Notes under the pieces: model-generated
The model's input: only the letters and a program-made list of their open reading frames with translations
What the model was told of the DNA's origin: nothing
Databases searched by the model: none
Part shown: positions 47,143 to 57,495 of the stretch, one piece after another
Layout of the letters: each line of letters begins with the position of its first letter
Numbering within the stretch: the stretch's first letter is position 1
Made by a program: the position numbers and the translations under genes
From: Amylostereum areolatum
Lineage: Eukaryota > Basidiomycota > Agaricomycetes > Russulales > Stereaceae
DNA length: 64,000 nt
Direction of reading: 5' to 3'
Assembly: GCA_012932865.1 (NCBI GenBank)
Contig: SAXG01000122.1
Location: 16,740-80,739, forward strand

Positions 47143-47690
47143 CCGTGGATTTCTGATTCTCTTACATACGCCCTGCGTTGTACATTACCTCTGCTGTCGG
47201 AGATGCGATGGTGCGAAGGATCGGCCGCGGGGGCTGCAACCTTCAAGAGCTTCAAGGCTCTGGTTCGGCGCTATCCGCTCTCGCGGAAAGCCGCAATTCG
47301 ATGGGCACGAAAGCGAGATGCGCTTCGAATTCCTCCCCACGATCGACATCCCAGCCACCACTAGATGCGACCGAAAAGTCATCGTGGAGTTGTAGACGAT
47401 GTTGTATGGCATAAAAACCCTCGGGCATCTTCATTCGCTCCACCTGCCGAGCCCTCAATCGAGGCTCGATTGCTTTGCATGCGACATTACATAAATCTGT
47501 GGACGGACGACTTTCCAGCGGCGGCCACTTACTTTCGAGATCTCAGCCTGGAGACTCTGAAGTCGTCGGCCATCAAGACAACGTTGTCGCGCAGGGACGG
47601 GGGTGAGGATTGTCGGCTTTGAGCATCTAGGTTTTCGTGAAAGTACGATATCTGGAACACCTCGCTACACCGACTACGTTGAAACGACGG
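47143..47690. other. Intergenic region
   Basis: Between the transporter stop and the target duplication of the 9.3-kb transposon I see no supported gene; it presumably includes the transporter 3' UTR. Confidence 0.4.
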
Positions 47691-47696
47691 AGCGGC
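47691..47696 (+). repeat. 6-bp target-site duplication (left)
   Basis: AGCGGC directly precedes the left inverted repeat; the same six bases follow the right inverted repeat at 57040-57045. Confidence 0.85.
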
Positions 47697-47819
47697 TATG
47701 GCGCATATACTGTGTAAAAAATCGAACTCGTTGTTTTTCGTCGGAGGTGGTTGTGGCCTCGAAAAATCATGCCGAAGTTGAGGGAGGCGACAAAATCTGG
47801 GCCGAGGTGAAATGTCTCT
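47697..47819 (+). repeat. Left terminal inverted repeat of the 9.3-kb element
   Basis: It aligns with the complement of 56914-57039 with only two or three differences up to AATGTCTCT, where the arms diverge. Confidence 0.92.
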
Positions 47820-48024
47820 CTGAGAGTTCTGCCGACTCGGTTGTGCTATGTAGATGTTGGCGGAGGTCCTCGGTGGGGTTTTTTCTCCTGAAGTGGTGGG
47901 AGTGAGTTTGAGACGGAGGATAGGAGCGTGCGCGTAGACTACCAGTGTTCCGTGGTTCACGTGCGTCGTGGGCCGCGGTACTAAGGGGAGATGGGTTTCT
48001 CTCTCAGTCTCCTCGACATCCTCC

Positions 48025-49744
48025 ATGGCTTCATCTACCCCCGAGGACCCCCTTTTCCCCCCTATTGAGAGCCGGGGCGTGCACAACTTTCTCTTGGAGG
48101 CTCACAACATCATGACTGAGGCTCGTTTCATCATTCAATCCCTTCCAAATGCGGAGCGCACAGCGGTGGAGAGGATCTGTTTACAGCTCGACGCTACCAA
48201 TCGCATCCTTATGGGCCTTGTGGATCCCCTGACATTGGAGGATGAACGCCATGCACTCATAGACTCTGTCGACACCATCCTCAGTCCTCTCCGCCGGTTT
48301 CTCGAGACAGCCGCTGAAGCGGATGATGCACCCGAAGTCCCTCGTGTCTTTACCGGGAATAGGGGGCGTCCAGCGTACTCTCTCGACCTCAGGCGTGCTC
48401 AACAGCTTCATGCGATGGGGAACTCATGGGAGGATGTAGCAAAGGCGATGGGTGTTAGCAGAAAAACCTTGGACAACCATATGCGGAGAGGGGGCCTCTC
48501 GTCGGCACGCCCAGCGTACACGGACATCGACGATGATGATCTAGACGAACTTGTCAGGGAGATCTCACATGAACACCCTTTCGAAGGCTCTGTAATCCTG
48601 CGTGGCCATCTCAAATCGAGGGGTGTCAACGTATCGGCGAGACGCGTCCAGGATAGTTTGCGTCGGGTGGATCCGTTGGGGACCTTGACTCGGTGAGTGG
48701 TAATCTTCTCTACCAGGCATTGTCGATCAATGCCCGGACATTCTGTGGCTTACATATACTCAGGTGGTCGGGGATTATCAAGAGGCGTGTATATCGCGTC
48801 CGTGGGGCAAACGCACTGTGGCACATGGATGGGAACGAGAAACTTCGCCCGTGGGGGTTCTACATTCATGGTTGCATCGACGGCCACTCACGGCTCATCA
48901 TCTACCTGGATTGTCGCCTTAACAAGAAAGCGGAGACAGTGAAATCAATATTTCTCGATGCAGTCGCTCAATATGGATGGCCGAGCCGGGTTCGCGGTGA
49001 TTTTGGGACGGAGAACAATGCCGTGGAGGTCGTGATGGTTGGGAAACGCGGAGAGGCTCACAGAGCATACCTTCGAGGCCGGTGCGCTTACTGCTGCATC
49101 AGATTGACTTACAACTTAAGTATCACGCTCACAGATCTCTGAACAATATACGTATTGAACGTTTGTGGCGGGACGTCCGCAAGGGAACGATTGAGACGTT
49201 CCGGCAAATTTTCTTCCATCTCGAGAAGTGTGGGCTACTCGACGTCGACGACGACATCCACATGGATTGCCTCAAACTCGTTTTCCAGCCACGCATACAA
49301 GAGTCTTTGAATCGAACTATCGACGCATGGAACCATCACAAGGTCCGCACAGCTGGAAACCGTACTCCGGTGGCCATATTCGAGCTGAGCCGAGAGGCGG
49401 CGATGCGAAGGGGCTACTGGACAGGAGACCCAGGCGACTCGGTGGAGACCGCTTCCGACCCACTGTATGGTGTTGAAACGGATGCTCCCCATCCGCCAGA
49501 GGAGGAGGTCGAGGGGGAAAGGTTGGACAGAGAAGAGATGGAGGATGACGGTGATGATGACTATGATGGTCTTGCGGAGGCAAGAGAGCTGCTGTCAGAC
49601 ATGGACCTGACAGCAGATGATGGAAACTGGGGGATTGATGTGTATTGTGAGGCTGTCCTGAAGCTGACCTCTCGCTTGGCGGCGGAGTCCCAGGATGAGG
49701 ATGCTGAGTTGGACCACCACTCGAGTTCGGGTTCGAGTACATAA
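48025..49744 (+). CDS. Integrase-core (DD35E) transposase
   Basis: Three exons, 48025-48692, 48764-49081 and 49135-49744, encode 531 aa in frame. A helix-turn-helix-like segment lies near residues 125-170 (LRRAQQLHAMGNSWEDVAKAM). The retroviral-integrase-type core has Asp245 in LWHMDGNEKL, CIDGHSRLIIYLD, Asp302 in RGDFGTENN, and Glu337 in NIRIERLWRDV, so the spacing is D-D(35)E. The C-terminal ~100 residues are acidic. It should cut and join the ends of the 9.3-kb element. The start is the ATG in front of SSTPEDPLF; upstream codons in frame have no ATG. Similar integrase-core proteins occur scattered in fungi and animals; I cannot name the exact family. Confidence 0.88.
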
Positions 49745-49916
49745 TGTTTGTTTTATTTTGGCATTAATACAGAGAGAATACGGTGTATATACACACTATA
49801 GACCTCATCAAACCTTCCGAGGGACATTCTGAGGATCAGTTCGCATAGGAGGGGCGAGACTTGGTGAGTTGGGAGACCATTGTGACACTGTGACACCGTG
49901 ACATTGGGATCGGGTG

Positions 49917-50037
49917 GTGGTATATTCTAAAACTTGGGGCTCCTGCAGTTAAGCTCTGATACTGTTTTGAGGACAAGATATACTGAATGGATACATTATG
50001 GCTCATATGGATTGTACCATTACTGAGCCATTCAGGT
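49917..50037 (+). repeat. Dispersed ~110-bp repeat, copy 1
   Basis: It shares GGGGCT-C near the start, TTAAGCTCTGA, and GATTGTACCATTACTGAGCC near the end with 57899-58014, and more weakly with 58110-58215. It lies inside the 9.3-kb element, downstream of its transposase. Confidence 0.65.
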
Positions 50038-50562
50038 GTAACGGCGGGAAACATTGGAGGAGCAAGATCATGTGACCTGTGCATGCACAAAGCAACTTTC
50101 CTCATAGTTGAAGCAGTGGCACAACTTTATGGTACCTTCTTTGCTGGACTTATTTTTGGCCTGTACGTATACCTGGTAGGGTCTCATATCCAGAAAATTT
50201 AGAGGATATGAGTGCATTAATTGATCTCTGTAATCCAAAGTATGTGTACCACTCCCGTGTCCCGCGCATGCTGACAAAGCAGGTCTCCAAGTTTGCGCGA
50301 GTTCCCCCAATCTGTTCACATAGCTCAGAATCCAACCACCAGAAATCCATGAGACGTATGTCAAGGATTCACAATGATATGGAGTATATAATGAGCCAAA
50401 AAAATCGGAAAACGATCCAAAAAATCTTCCTTCGTATCAATTCCGTCTTCACTACTACACAAGAGACACGCGTACCGCTCTAACAGAATTGTATACATTA
50501 ATTATGTTGTACTCGTTCGGAAATACAGGAAATACATGTTGCTATCTCGCATAAGCCTTCAG

Positions 50563-53500
50563 CTAAATCGCTCCAAACCTCCGTGCTTGATCGAGTAAGA
50601 CAGCCATGATATCGCTCGTCATTTGTTCCCAGTGCGATGACCGAAAAGCACCAGCAAGTGCGATCTTGTCAGGATGATAAAGCTGGAGTGACATGACGGT
50701 AAGTTCAAGTGCATCAATCCGTGAGCATTGAGTGGAATTGAAGGGACAAATAGGATCTAACGCACTTTTGCAAGACGACGGAACTGCGCCTTCTTCGAGA
50801 GAACTTGCATATCACTTGTAGCTGGACGTTGATTAGCAGGAAGGCCGGGTACTGGGAAATCCCTCAAGAGTGTTGATACAAAGGAGTCCCAGCGCACAAT
50901 GTTCCGAAGAGCCTGAACTCCTGCCAACTGAACTGCTTCCCACTTCGTCTGACTCACAGACGCTCTCCTCGCGGTTTGCGGCGATCGTCGAGACGAGTGT
51001 CCAGATGCTGAAGTAGATGGAGGACGGCAAGCAGAATGCTTAGCCTTTTTCCCACCAGGCGAAGGCTTCGTTGACGACCGCGTTTGTTGGCCGGTCTTCT
51101 GTGGGTGCTCACCATCAGACTCGTCTGAGGATAAGCTCATCCATGGGCCTTTTGACTTGTGGCCAGCACCCGGACGTGGTTTTTTGTGGTAGTATTGTGG
51201 GCCGGAGGGACGTCGTTTTGCGCGGGCCGTTTTGTGAGGAGGATGAGTACTCGTGTCCGGCTTCTTGCCCTTCTCCCGGCGTGCCCGATAGGACGAGGAT
51301 GAGTCTGAATCTGAGCTAGCATGGTCGTCGATCTCGATGGGTCGGTGTGAACTCCCTGGCTGCGAGTCAAACATATCTGTGATATCTGATATATGTTGTG
51401 AGTTCTGGTATCGTTTATGAGTTATACAATCGATAACTCACCTGGCTCATCCTCCCACCCCTGATTTCTCTGGTGTTTATGTTCCTCCCACTCTCGTTTC
51501 AGGCTTGAATCTGGAGGGTGATAAAGATACTAGTCAGGATATATGAACCATAAAACTGTACAGCAGAGACGTGACAAACCGCTCCCTAATTCCTCATTGA
51601 TATCAAATGGTTCTGGAGACCGTGCGTCTGCTGATTCTCGAGGAGCAAACCCCTCATTTGACGGTGTAGGGCTTCCTGGATAGAAAAGGGGAGAGCTTGG
51701 AGGGGGGCTCTTCGCTTGGTATGTCGATGACATATGGTTTGTATGGGGCGGGAGCGGCGACAGTGGTAGCATAGTAGATGGTTCGGGAGAAATAGTTGTT
51801 CTGCTGTGTACAAAGTTGAAAGAAGTGAATTAGAGCATACATATCGTAGTCTAGATATTGCCTACGTCGTCTTCTTCTTCCACCCTCCCTTGGACGCAGA
51901 CTTCATCGATGCCGCTTCATCACTCATTCCTGCGCTTACGCCACCCGTCTCCTTGCTGCGGGTGAAATGCTGTCGTCCCGCTTGAGATGAACGGTTGTTT
52001 GTATTCTCTTCACTGTGTCCCTAAAAACGGTAAGCGACAGGGAATAAAGCACCTTCAGAAACTACGAACCGGCTCCGGGGATTTTGAGGCTGCGAAGCGG
52101 CGACCATTTTTCCGATAATTTTGAGGTGTCTATTTGAACGTTGGTTAATGCTATCCAATAGATACAAGTGACTCGGGTTGGAAGACTGACCTTGTAATAA
52201 CTCTGGAGTTTCTTGATTAAAGCCTTGATGAATTTGCAGAGAGTCGCTTCACATTCGCCATAGTTCGGGCCGTCGAAGGTGTCGTAAAAAGCTTCAATGA
52301 TAGTGGTTAGGAAATGTTGGAGACCCCACTCGCCGCCTTGCAGTGCGTCGTGCTTGATCATCTTGTGGTTTGATGTGTGACCAAAGTGAGTATTGAGCGC
52401 CGTGGTCAAGGATTCAACGGTGCAGTGCTTGTCTTGCAGGTTGAGGGCATGTAGCGTTGAGTTTTCCCAAGCCGCGCGCGTGCCCATCTACAAACTCGAT
52501 CAGAAAGGAAGCCAGAGACAAGACATACGGAACTGAGGAACTGAACCCACCGGCAGTTTGGGTGGGGAACGATCCCCTTTGTGAATTTCGATACGAAGAT
52601 CACGTACAACCGGAGGGTCATACAAAGACCTGTCCGTCGACTTGCGGAACCATCTCACTATGGCGAGAAGGGCAGACGAATACGGAACAATTTGAGCGAT
52701 GAAATCACCTGGATCCGAGAGCTGCGCAAGCACAGCATACAAGCGAGATAGTATGTCGACGATGGAATGGATACCATATGGGCCAAAAGCGACTTCGGAG
52801 ACTAGCAAAGATTTCCAGATGGTGTCTGACACTCCACTTGCTTCTTCATCCGCAGCCAGCTGGATACGATTTGGCCAGAGGAGAATGAACTTGATACTGT
52901 CGAGAAGCTTGTGGACTGGGTACGCAAACAGCTCTTTGATTTCTTCAGCTGACACCTGCTTGGGAAGGTTTTCGATCTCGAGGGCAACAATCTGGACCGC
53001 ACGAAGGGATTTGTCGTATTCCGGCATCATGGTCGTCTTCTCATCTTGAGGCCACTGTGAAAGAGAGGTGAGGTATGCGGTGAGTGCATGCATCCACGGA
53101 CGACAACTGAGGGAGACAAACCCAATAACAGTCCTCCTCACGTGCCAATGGCGGCGGGTTGATATTGAGCATAAGGCGCACCAGACTGGCGTGGCTTTCA
53201 GGAAAACCTGTCGAAGGGGCCTCGGAAGATCCTGACCCAGTCTTGGGGATTGCGGTTGCTGCGGGACTCCTGTCCGTGGTCCGAGTCTTGTTCTGGATGT
53301 CATACTTGAAAATAAAGGTCAGTATACACAGAAACCGTGATGATGATATAACCTACATCCCCCGAGATTGTATCATTGGCCATTGTCGAAGAACCACCAT
53401 AGACGGATGGTGATTTGGGATGGGTAGGTGGATGCGCGTCTTTGGGTTCATCGACCTGTTCGATACCCGCCAGAGGTCAGCATCAGGGACTATCCATATA

Positions 53501-56205
53501 TAATGAAACAACGTACCATTGCAATTTCACCCTCCTCATCTCCGCTCTCGTCATCTCCACCCTTGCCGTCTCCGTCCTTATCATGTCTACCCACATCCTC
53601 CCCACGCTCCTTCCCGCCCTCGTTCTCCTCGTTGTCCTCACTACCACTTGAACTCAATCCATCGGATATCTCTTCCTCGCTCTCGTCTTCCGATTCGTCG
53701 TCTAACTTCTTTGAGTGCTTGGCCTTGAGCGAATCGCCTTTGGAGTGCCAAAAATCGAGGTCTCGGTGCCCTTGTGCGAGGGCGATGAAGATGACATTTT
53801 TCCATGCTTTTCCGGCACCCTTGATGTTGGTGTTGAGCGCCGAATTCCTGTAAGTGATGTGTCTAATGTCAACACAGCACTGGCAAGGATGAGAACAATC
53901 AACGTACTTGTAGAGCATATCGGCATCTAGCTTGATAGCGCCATCGAAGGCACCAGGTGGATAAAGACGCGTACCGGAAACACCTTGATGGGAGCGCGCA
54001 TCTAGGAGAACCCATGATCGAATGTCGAGGTGGGTGCTGAAGGTGGCTGAAATGGTGTCCATCACAGTCCCGTGAGTCGCATCCAGCGGGAATGCCAATG
54101 TCCGGACAAAATCTTGTTTATGGAGGGAAAATAGCCTGTCCAATAGTATAAGAAGAGAAACAGAGAGGATACCGAAAAGACGCACTGGTTAACACTTGGT
54201 CTACTGCACCGAGACGACGGCCTTGTATGCACCCAGATCGTCGCCGGAATCAACACGACTGTGAACGACATCGTCTTGCCTGGCTTTTCTGCCGACGCAG
54301 ACATCCCTCGTCCTGACTTTGTCGATTTTGACGGGCCTACGGACGGCTCGCGAGACTTGCTGGACGTCTTCGGTTTTTTGTACTTGGAATTCTCCCGTGC
54401 CTTTCCCTTCTCTTCCACGCCATCTGCCTCGCGCTGCTTGCGTTTTTTCGACCCTGGGATCTTGGCTGCTGCATCTTCTTTCGCCTACCATGCTATGTAA
54501 ATTGCATCAGCAATATCACACTTTTTGTTGGGGTGTTGCCGACGGTTTCGGCTCTGTTGCCGGTGTTGGGGTGTTGATGGCAGTTGTCAGGCCCGGCCGA
54601 GTTTGGCAAACCCGGCAACTCCCCACAATTCCGGGGCAATTCATCGATCGCACTTCCCGGCATCAAATTTTGATCAGAAGGGAAATTGAGCCGGCCCTAA
54701 ACTGCGTTTGACCGTGAGACTTTCTCCTTTCTCATATTTCCCTGCCACGACGCGTCTTTCCTTCCTTCTCAACCACCACCATCCCTTCACCACCGCCGTC
54801 GCCACCGTTGTCCCCCTCACCGTTGTCCCCATCGTCCCCCTCGCCGCCTCGTCACCGCCGCCATCGCCACCTCATCACCGCCGCTGTCACCATCGCATCA
54901 CCGCCGCCACGCCACCATCGTTCCCTTCGCCGCCTCGTCACCGCCGCCACGCCACCATTGTTCCCTTCGCCGCCTCGTCACCGCCGCCGTCGCGGCCCAG
55001 TCACTGCCGCCCTCGCCACCTCGTCACAGCCGCCCTCGCCGCCGCATCACAGCCGCCCTCGCCACCTCGTCACCGCCACCCTCACCATTGCGTCACTGCC
55101 GCCGTCATCGCCCCGTCACCGCTGCCGTCGCCATCTCGTCACCACCGCTGTCGCCATCTCGTCACTCCCGCCGTCGCCACCTCATCGCCATCTCGTCACT
55201 CCCGCCGTCGCCACCTCGTCACTCCTGCCGTCGCCGCCGCCGCCGCCGCCGTCATGGCCACCCTCGCCGTCGCCACCTCGTCACTCCCGCCCTTGCAGCC
55301 CTTGTCACCAGTGCCGTCAGTGCCTCGTCACCCCCGCCGTTGCCGCCTCATTACCCTAGTTACATGGTCTTTTCATTATCTATATTATACTTTTCCTTCT
55401 CTACTTCGTGTAGCTCATGTAGTATGTACCACTGATCAATAATAATGATATTGATTTACCCATTAAAATGTTTGGATATGAGCAATATAAATTAAATATA
55501 AGTATTGAAATGTGTTGTTGTCATGTACTTGAGCCTAAGTTGTACCCAAATGTATGGTGAATTGGACACTAGTTGGCTCAACTCCGTGACAGTTGTCCAA
55601 CCAGACATGGCCTGGGAGACTGTTGGGGTGTTGGGGTGTTTTGTGTGTTTTTGCGAGTTTTGAGTGTTGGACAACTCCAAAACAGGCTCAAGCAAGCCCA
55701 AACAAAATGTGTTAAATTGCTGATGTGGCTGCTATGACTGAGTAACCAGAAGACGTACCTTGGCGGCAGGATCAAACGGGGTGAACCCTCCACGCTCCCG
55801 AGCTTCCCTCTGTTGCGCGTGGCTCAAAAAAGAGGAACGAGAGGCATTGAGTGTCTCCCTTGTTGCACTTGGAGTACGAGCACCTTGAGTTGAACTAGAA
55901 GCGGTCGGTTGCTGTGGCTCTCGGCGGTCAGCGCGCTGTTCCGGCCCCTTCTACGCAACCGTGTTAGGATCGCGTGGAAACAGCAGTAGCATGCGAATGC
56001 ATACCTTAGAAAGACGGTGCCAAATTGCTGGGTGGCCGCAATATGCACACAGGGTGGTGCCGGGTATCTCCCCTGTCGAGGACTCAGGTATAGTGGCTGG
56101 GAAAAAGGCCTCGCATGCCTGCGTAGAGTCTATGTCAATAACCAGGCAGTCTCCCATACGACACGGCCCCAGATCATCTGGATGGACCAGCCACGGATTC
56201 GCCAT
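50563..56205 (-). CDS. Large partner protein of the 9.3-kb element, function unknown
   Basis: Fifteen exons (56205-56005, 55950-55759, 54484-54186, 54135-53908, 53847-53517, 53455-53357, 53304-53122, 53054-52551, 52487-52191, 52129-52070, 52020-51866, 51803-51580, 51510-51442, 51376-50766, 50682-50563) give an uninterrupted 1190-aa protein. I do not recognise the family. The N terminus has a small zinc-knuckle-like motif (CAYCGHPAIWH). Residues ~130-200 are Lys/Glu-rich and nuclear-signal-like. A globular region follows (SFTVVLIPATIW, LFSLHKQDFVRTLAFPLD, GHRDLDFWHSKG), then a long acidic Asp/Glu/Gly tract, a helical domain (EYDKSLRAVQIVALEIENLP), and a basic Ser-rich C-terminal part ending RSSHWEQMTSDIMAVLLDQARR. 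Its position between the inverted repeats implies a role in transposition or silencing evasion. Intron 2 has been enlarged to 1274 nt by an inserted element. Confidence 0.8.
54505..55725. mobile_element. 1.2-kb non-autonomous element related to the inner Plavaka-type element
   Basis: Ends are CATCAGCAATATCACAC at 54505 and, inverted, CATCAGCAATTTAACACA ending at 55725; 28 bp match with four differences. TG flanks both sides (54503-54504, 55726-55727). The end sequence and the subterminal CAGACATGGCCTGGGAG block are shared with the element at 21533-28501, so that family's transposase probably moved it. It contains no gene. It sits in intron 2 of the 1190-aa gene; without it that intron would be about 51 nt, the usual size here. 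Confidence 0.83.
54780..55350 (+). repeat. GC-rich minisatellite inside the 1.2-kb element
   Basis: Imperfect tandem units of about 22-24 bp built from CCTCGTCAC-CCGCCGTCGCCA variants fill nearly half of the element. Because the unit lacks stops, long low-complexity Pro/Ser/His/Arg frames stay open in three phases; I do not read them as genes. Confidence 0.8.
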
Positions 56206-56913
56206 GACGCCGGACGAGACGAGAGGATAGAGAAAAGACGGCAGAAGGGAGGAAGATAGGAGTCCGCGCTCTCGACCAACAAAGCCGTCGGAACCGCCGA
56301 AAAAGAGGAGGCAGCGGCCCCGCAACTCCTCTCCCACGCTCTTCCCTAATTGCCGGCCGCATTCCATGAATACATACAGCCAGGAGTCCTACATTTCACG
56401 TCGCGAGCGGAATATTGAGCGAAATTGCCCAACAATATCGCCCGTGAACAGAAACAGCGGCACCCACTGGTAGCCATCCATCTCAACCCAAAACCGTGAC
56501 AGCAGCTCTGGAGACAGGCAAACACAGGCAAGAACCACGTACCAAGACGTCCATGATCCAAGTAGAGTAGTACCCCACTTGGCCGATGGCAGGAGATAGT
56601 ATCCCAGCCGCTACAAAGACCAAAACACATCTCACCCGGCCACAGGCAGTGACCATCTGATATCCCACCATGGCAAAGAGAGACAACTCGGCGAGACATG
56701 ACAAGAGAGGGGCCGTGGTGCTCTGTCAGTGTCTGAAGCAAACCATAAGGACGCGTGTCGCGAGCCAAGTTCAAACACTGCCCACTTCGGGCTCGATTTG
56801 GGAGCGTGAGACCTCCGCGCAAACCGCCGTGTGAGGCGACCTCAGATCAAATTTGCGGGAGACCAACCTCCGCCAACATCTAAATCCATCGCCGTTCAAC
56901 CTCGGCCGAAATC
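56206..56913. other. Upstream region of the partner gene within the 9.3-kb element
   Basis: It should hold the promoter and leader of the minus-strand 1190-aa gene. A minus-strand open frame at 56346-56822 (cysteine-rich, 158 codons) has no recognisable domain and I do not count it as a gene. Confidence 0.4.
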
Positions 56914-57039
56914 ACAGAGACATTTCACCTCGGCCCAGATCTTTGTCGCCTCCCTCAACTTCGGCATGATTTTTCGAGGCCACAACCACCTCCGACAAAA
57001 AACAACGAGTTCGATTTTTTACACAGTATATGCGCCATA
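56914..57039 (-). repeat. Right terminal inverted repeat of the 9.3-kb element
   Basis: Its complement matches 47697-47819 almost perfectly, starting TATGGCGCATATACTG. Confidence 0.92.
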
Positions 57040-57045
57040 AGCGGC
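57040..57045 (+). repeat. 6-bp target-site duplication (right)
   Basis: AGCGGC directly follows the right inverted repeat and equals 47691-47696. Confidence 0.85.
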
Positions 57046-57261
57046 TTCGGCCGCTGAATAAGCAATGTCAGAGCGACACAACTTCGCGGTGAGCCTTGGA
57101 ACGTCGGAACGACGTAGCGTTCGCGCTCACGCGCAACGAGTCGCCCTCGTCATGTCGTAGCGTCGCAGCGTCGCAGTGACAAAACGACAAAACGACAGAA
57201 TGACGCCCTCCATATATATATATACACCTTCCAGCTCTTTCCCTCTCCCTTCGTCCCCGCT

Positions 57262-57495
57262 ATGTCTATTGTCGCTGTCATATCCTCCTTTATTTCTCGC
57301 CCTGACCTCGCTGATGCCCTAACCGTCGACTCGTTTCTTCTATTCTTCCGCCTTGTTGTTCACCTCAAAGATCATCTTTCGTGGCACCGAGCGCCCTCGT
57401 TTCCTGGTCCCCCCCTTCACCTTCCGTCTGAAGTCACCGGGGTGGTGTCTGTCCTCGAAATTGTCCAAAGATGTAATGTGTTTCAAGATCAGTGA
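57262..57495 (+). pseudogene. 5' fragment of a KDZ-associated CxC5-type gene
   Basis: The frame opens MSIVAVISSFISRPDLADAL, continues FLLFFRLVVHLKDHL and a PGPPLHLPSEV turn, then stops. This resembles the helical N-terminal region of proteins that carry the CxC5/CxC6 cysteine clusters found with KDZ transposases. None of the later domains follows within reach. An alternating AT tract (57211-57224) lies upstream at TATA distance. It may be the remnant 5' exon of a copy truncated downstream. Identification is by pattern and tentative. Confidence 0.45.

Follow-up and report, generated by a model that had tools for sequence, protein, structure and literature searches.

Which superfamily would hold a transposon with an integrase-type transposase, long inverted ends and a 6-bp target-site duplication (TSD), and what is the large gene that faces its transposase? 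Both questions are raised by a 9,343-bp element in a window of 64,000 nucleotides from Amylostereum areolatum (assembly GCA_012932865.1, contig SAXG01000122.1, positions 16,740-80,739 of the forward strand), to which all coordinates refer unless another contig or copy is named. The data support a DNA transposon that has two genes, is complete and moved recently. Based on sequence analysis, it is very probably an autonomous member of the IS3EU superfamily, and we conclude that it represents a new IS3EU family rather than a superfamily of its own, known IS3EU elements having been compared by their published descriptions. The unusual part is the unrecognised partner gene, which lies beside the transposase in every full copy found in this genome (5/5). 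The element and its ends occupy the following positions:

47697..57039, unstranded: complete element assigned to IS3EU, 9,343 bp, TATGG..CCATA, defined by inverted ends, a second copy and empty sites.
47691..47696, forward strand: left TSD, AGCGGC, single at the empty sites L068 and L069.
57040..57045, forward strand: right TSD, AGCGGC, likewise single at the empty sites.
47697..47819, forward strand: left terminal inverted repeat, 123 bp (97/98 and 25/25 positions, one 1-nt gap).
56916..57039, reverse strand: right terminal inverted repeat, 124 bp.

The inverted ends show 99% complementarity over 98 nt and, after the 1-nt gap, pair at all of 25 more positions, i.e., at 122 of 123 overall; with uniform base composition, about 1e-49 arm pairs of this quality would be expected by chance. 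The insertion target is a dispersed host repeat, represented in the window by 47636-47696 and 57040-57340. In a genome search, the left flank matched C172, C101, C180 and C54 exactly to the insertion point and C105 over 40 bases, ending short of that point, while the right flank matched C172, C101, C105 and C180. Three of these five places were read. Two of them, L068 and L069, are continuous across the junction, with one AGCGGC and no insert, and share 92% identity with the element flanks across about 280 bp. In the third, L070, the sequence at the junction differs and no clean empty site is seen. The clean empty sites therefore indicate that the boundaries 47697-57039 and the AGCGGC duplication are correct, and the coordinates, the near-identical inverted repeats of about 123 bp and the perfect duplication all stand as given in the original prediction. 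Scans of the window for tRNA genes and Rfam families gave no match.

A second full copy (L009, 703-8835) has 99% identity to the window copy, carries the TSD CAAGGA on both sides and keeps both frames; together with the exact empty sites, it bears out the recent activity that had been proposed. These two copies are termed family 1. The transposase genome search led to three further full elements, termed family 2:

C129 68645-77787: family-2 element, TSD TGCGTG.
C111 225449-239139: family-2 element, 13.7 kb, TSD TGATGA.
C113 133676-159338: family-2 element, 25.7 kb, TSD CATCTG, read except for 1,019 internal bases.

Additional internal sequence accounts for the greater length of the C111 and C113 copies. 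The family-2 transposases are 57-60% identical to that of the window copy across most of exon 1, 71-74% in exon 2 and 64% in exon 3, and in C111 a 1-bp difference splits the first-exon match. Between the three copies, similarity breaks off at the TATGG/CCATA ends with perfect 6-bp repeats. Long inverted repeats are not shared by all copies: the ends of family 2 are short and imperfect. A search for further copies with the same ends, duplications and empty sites had been proposed beforehand, with the possibility that the two genes would never be found together; all five full elements have TATGG..CCATA ends, perfect 6-bp TSDs and both genes in convergent orientation, with empty sites for the window copy. 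Two short, non-autonomous derivatives are present on C104 (L010 583-2093), one nested within the other's terminal repeat. They share about 290 bp and about 230 bp of the element ends, and the TSD is 5/6 for the inner one and missing for the outer. One additional element end is located on C34.

The first of the two genes is the following:

48025..49744, forward strand: transposase gene, exons 48025-48692, 48764-49081 and 49135-49744, 531 aa.

Its spliced product is intact and includes the catalytic residues already named in the original prediction, Asp245, Asp302 and Glu337, which form an Asp-Asp-Glu (DDE) core; helix-turn-helix-like matches lie at about residues 116-156. The Pfam scan identified the integrase core PF24764 (E value 1.8e-65), the D, D and E columns are conserved in 36, 37 and 37 of 37 aligned sequences, and an integrase fold is found in a homologue with 58% identity. 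The His-His-Cys-Cys (HHCC) pattern is absent, only a single Cys being present within the first 244 residues. A search of viral contigs with the transposase alignment gave 39 pattern matches and no relatives, and the plasmid collection gave no match to a query of just 61 bases.

In Polintons, an integrase is accompanied by a family B DNA polymerase, and no polymerase was found in the Pfam scans of both modelled proteins, which cover most of the element. Ginger1 and Ginger2 need a 4-bp or 4-5-bp TSD, with HHCC in Ginger1 (PMC10045372, used here in part, as are the other papers cited), whereas this element has 6 bp and no HHCC. IS481EU can also be set aside, with TSDs of about 4, 15 or 25 bp and TG..CA-type or TNT..AYA ends in contrast to the 6 bp and TATGG..CCATA found here. 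Complete IS3EU families, listed in Repbase since 2013, always have TA..TA termini, usually a 6-bp TSD, and no HHCC motif (PMC10045372), while those of rusts have TAYGG..CCRTA ends and 6-bp TSDs (PMC12730594). Both the TATGG..CCATA termini and the perfect 6-bp TSD (5/5 full-length elements in each case) agree with these descriptions, as does the integrase-like DDE transposase, with its first D (D245) in the range of 100-300 residues from the N-terminus and without HHCC. A counter-oriented second gene is published too: in all TET+ IS3EU families an alpha-kinase gene is opposite in orientation to the transposase (PMC12730594). IS3EU has been named in the Agaricomycetes Ganoderma (PMC8955403) and Phlebopus (PMC12411881). 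Moreover, 32 new insertions of Styx, which derives from IS3EU and has 6-bp TSDs, arose in a pedigree (PMC10853768); IS3EU-type elements thus move in fungi today.

The original prediction had held that the element fits no known superfamily and may represent an undescribed group. The reading as an undescribed integrase-type superfamily of DNA transposons is rejected because the termini, the TSD and the transposase match IS3EU (PMC10045372, PMC12730594), as does the counter-oriented second gene, and we consider it very improbable. The transposase also has 264 relatives at E<=0.001, with Agaricomycetes, other fungi and animals among the 120 matches listed. What speaks for a separate superfamily is that the partner has no significant Pfam family and no homologue was found for it, and that the tree of homologues includes only sequences without a transposon family name and no named IS3EU references. 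Membership in IS3EU would thus be read from termini, TSD, domain and architecture, not from a reference tree. In the literature search, no paper was found that pairs any two of rva_4, PF24764 and IS3EU.

By established DDE chemistry, the N-terminal helix-turn-helix of the transposase would bind the long inverted ends, and the DDE core, of RNase H fold, would cut the element at TATGG/CCATA. Strand transfer would join it to the target at positions 6 bp apart, and host repair of the gaps would create the 6-bp duplication. The basis for this scheme that is seen in the sequence comprises the precise insertion, the ends, the duplication, the empty sites, the second copy, the intact frames and the DDE core.

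The second gene and its parts were modelled as follows:

50563..56205, reverse strand: partner gene, 15-exon model with GT-AG introns, 1183 aa.
56205-56005, 55950-55759, 54484-54186, 54135-53908, 53847-53517, 53455-53357, 53304-53142 and 53044-52551, reverse strand: partner exons 1-8.
52487-52191, 52129-52070, 52020-51866, 51803-51580, 51510-51442, 51385-50766 and 50682-50563, reverse strand: partner exons 9-15.
56017..56163, reverse strand: putative N-terminal zinc module, C-x4-C ... CxxCGH-x4-H, Cys/His columns common to both families.
52191..53044, reverse strand: helical middle domain (exons 8-9), best conserved between families.
50668..50676, reverse strand: His-Pro-Asp (HPD) motif (YHPDK) of a C-terminal J-domain-like stretch, common to both families.

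A convergent, intact gene of 1190 aa had been predicted at this place. The gene is convergent and open; its length is 1183 aa in the present model, and the intron 53141-53045 is uncertain. In L009, the partner is also open (1186 aa), and its splice sites are the same except for a single base within a donor; the sole exonic indel between the two copies is 9 bp long and keeps the frame. An 804-aa query covering the N-terminal and middle parts gave 17 genome matches, all inside the five full elements (24/24 candidates scored), where the partner is always convergent with the transposase. Judged from these comparisons, it is the helical middle only that is firmly conserved between the families (tblastn E value 1e-18 to 4e-19 and 30-38% identity with the three family-2 copies); the structure model of this domain is all-helical, at a confidence too low for use (predicted local distance difference test, pLDDT, 49). 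Local matches between families are weak for both the Cys/His module (E value 0.14-0.73) and the HPD stretch (E value 0.059-0.10). The Cys/His module and YHPDK follow the same order in both families, and hand-picked partner blocks have 30% identity between family 1 and family 2. The partner has no significant Pfam match, DnaJ being recorded at an E value of 0.064 and 13.8 bits, under the cut-off of 27.8. With DnaJ below the cut-off and HPD in both families, the C-terminus is therefore termed only J-like. The Pfam scan of family-2 partner blocks gave nothing up to an E value of 10, nor did the solved-structure search with the two-sequence alignment of the hand-picked blocks.

Selection within family 2 was estimated as the ratio of nonsynonymous to synonymous substitution rates (dN/dS) in nine coding blocks, not whole genes, and without a significance test. 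In comparisons with C129, dN/dS is 0.14-0.40 in both partner blocks from the middle domain, which have no stops, 0-0.09 (from three synonymous changes) in the N-terminal block and 0.30-0.59 in the C-terminal block; the last 32 codons contain too few changes. The corresponding values for transposase exons 1 and 3 are 0.10-0.22. Low dN/dS in these parts of family 2 indicates probable past constraint on the partner, and between the young copies constraint is not demonstrable. It is also observed that the window copy and L009 differ by 5 changes in 531 transposase codons vs 44 in 1183 partner codons; this unequal divergence could result from gene conversion or from histories that differ between the two genes.

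Several results weigh against the reading of an autonomous two-gene element. Between the window copy and L009, dN/dS is near 1 (0.92 from 44 changes for the partner and 1.22 from 5 changes for the transposase), and between C111 and C113 it is 0.58 in both middle blocks (8 and 3 changes). Relative to C129, a short beta-like block of the partner (1.0-1.4), like exon 2 of the family-2 transposase (0.88-1.44), shows no constraint, with few changes in each case. A 168-aa C-terminal query of the genome found family 1 and not family 2, and the C-terminal HPD similarity therefore rests on weak local matches. Searches of the protein collection gave no partner homologue, either with residues 200-800 (scoring was limited to the 7,988 candidates with the most shared words, which acidic low-complexity stretches may crowd) or with the two-sequence alignment of hand-picked blocks (6,899 candidates). 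Rapid divergence, together with fragmentary gene models, may account for this lack of homologues, in contrast to the many relatives of the transposase. Finally, the uncertain intron 53141-53045 could hide a frameshift in both copies.

On the evidence of its conserved parts, we infer that the convergent second gene encodes a co-mobile accessory protein with a putative Cys/His module, a helical middle and a C-terminal HPD. What it might do can be stated only tentatively. The best guess, with a probability well below even, is that the partner assists the transposase complex or lets the element evade host control, and Hsp70 recruited via HPD might be involved. Somewhat less likely again is the wider proposal of a new class of transposon accessory protein, Cys/His-module, helical and J-like, which would have co-evolved with one Agaricomycete IS3EU lineage and be needed for transposition or silencing escape in place of the rust alpha-kinase. 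A captured gene, or a passenger that protects the element, e.g., against silencing as proposed for the TET/JBP genes of fungal transposons elsewhere, has a considerable chance of being the better description, albeit short of even. Fungal IS3EU elements do carry extra genes, among them alpha-kinase and TET/JBP (PMC12730594), and Styx includes GATA, CCHC and DUF3577 genes (PMC10853768). However, no host paralogue of the partner was found, 17/17 genome matches lying within the five elements, and the gene is present in both families though strongly diverged; any capture would therefore be old.

It is also possible, though improbable, that the partner is dead or wrongly modelled, with a shared frameshift near 53135, and that only the transposase matters. 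Exon 7 can be joined to exon 8 only with an unusual acceptor: the WP with which exon 8 would begin, to judge from family 2, does not match the phase of the exon-7 donor, which implies either another acceptor or a shared frameshift. The dN/dS near 1 between the family-1 copies points the same way. Against this stand the open GT-AG models in both the window copy and L009, the single exonic indel that stays in frame, and the low middle-domain dN/dS in family 2.

One intron of the partner contains a further insertion, which the original prediction does not name:

54505..55725, unstranded: nested Plavaka-like insertion, 1,221 bp, CATCAGCAAT..ATTGCTGATG termini, in partner intron 2 and absent from L009.

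It is flanked by a 2-bp TSD, TG (54503-54504 / 55726-55727), includes a GC-rich 23-bp tandem array and has no ATG-started frame of at least 100 aa. Published PlavakaB elements have CATCA..TGATG ends and 2-3-bp TSDs (PMC12730594), which the CATCAGCAAT..ATTGCTGATG ends and the TG duplication fit. The first 260 bases have 29 genome matches including the window, 23 of them spanning all 260 bases at >=94% identity, and the intronic position leaves the coding exons unbroken.

Elsewhere in the genome, distant IS3EU-like transposase matches of 26-44% identity were observed on 13 contigs (C45, C24, C156, C133, C13, C66, C161, C170, C117, C150, C95, C2 and C56), on which the 804-aa partner query gave no match. 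The C161 copy (L067), the sole distant region that was read, is broken up by other sequence, possibly a hAT-type gene as judged by eye. On C117, the transposase match has a weak TET/JBP match about 10 kb away.

This locus provides a complete, recently mobile element assigned to IS3EU; its Agaricomycete-type host genome has exact empty sites as well as two families side by side, which makes ends, genes and target choice directly testable. The comparison suggests that IS3EU has no single conserved second protein and that the partner in this counter-oriented place varies between lineages of fungi. Why IS3EU transposons retain a large second gene is a question that this pair could help to answer.

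Among known systems, the bacterial IS481 and IS3 transposases share the helix-turn-helix and DDE regions, collinear over about residues 130-345, but score only 52.8 and 36 bits, far under the family cut-offs of 224 and 160. GingerRoot of clubmoss has a 6-bp TSD and mostly TA..TA ends, and its transposase has been joined with IS3EU in the superfamily IS3EU/GingerRoot (via PMC10045372); its host group differs. Styx of Zymoseptoria, at 7.9 kb, is similar in its integrase-type transposase, 6-bp TSD and recent activity, and differs in having four genes (transposase, GATA, CCHC and DUF3577) and 36-bp inverted repeats; a partner resembling the 1183-aa protein is not described in the part of PMC10853768 used here. 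In the TET+ IS3EU elements of rusts and truffle (PMC12730594), a TET/JBP gene separates the transposase from an alpha-kinase gene, whereas the second gene here is unrelated by Pfam and the ends of family 2 are short and imperfect. An alpha-kinase identity for the partner was rejected, with no kinase match in the protein and the 4 genome-wide alpha-kinase matches all off the five element contigs; the 27 genome-wide Tet_JBP matches are likewise all off these contigs. The TET+ elements nevertheless share with the present element the 6-bp TSD, the TAYGG..CCRTA termini (stated for the Pucciniales families), the opposite orientation of transposase and second gene and, as in family 1 here, inverted repeats of >30 bp.
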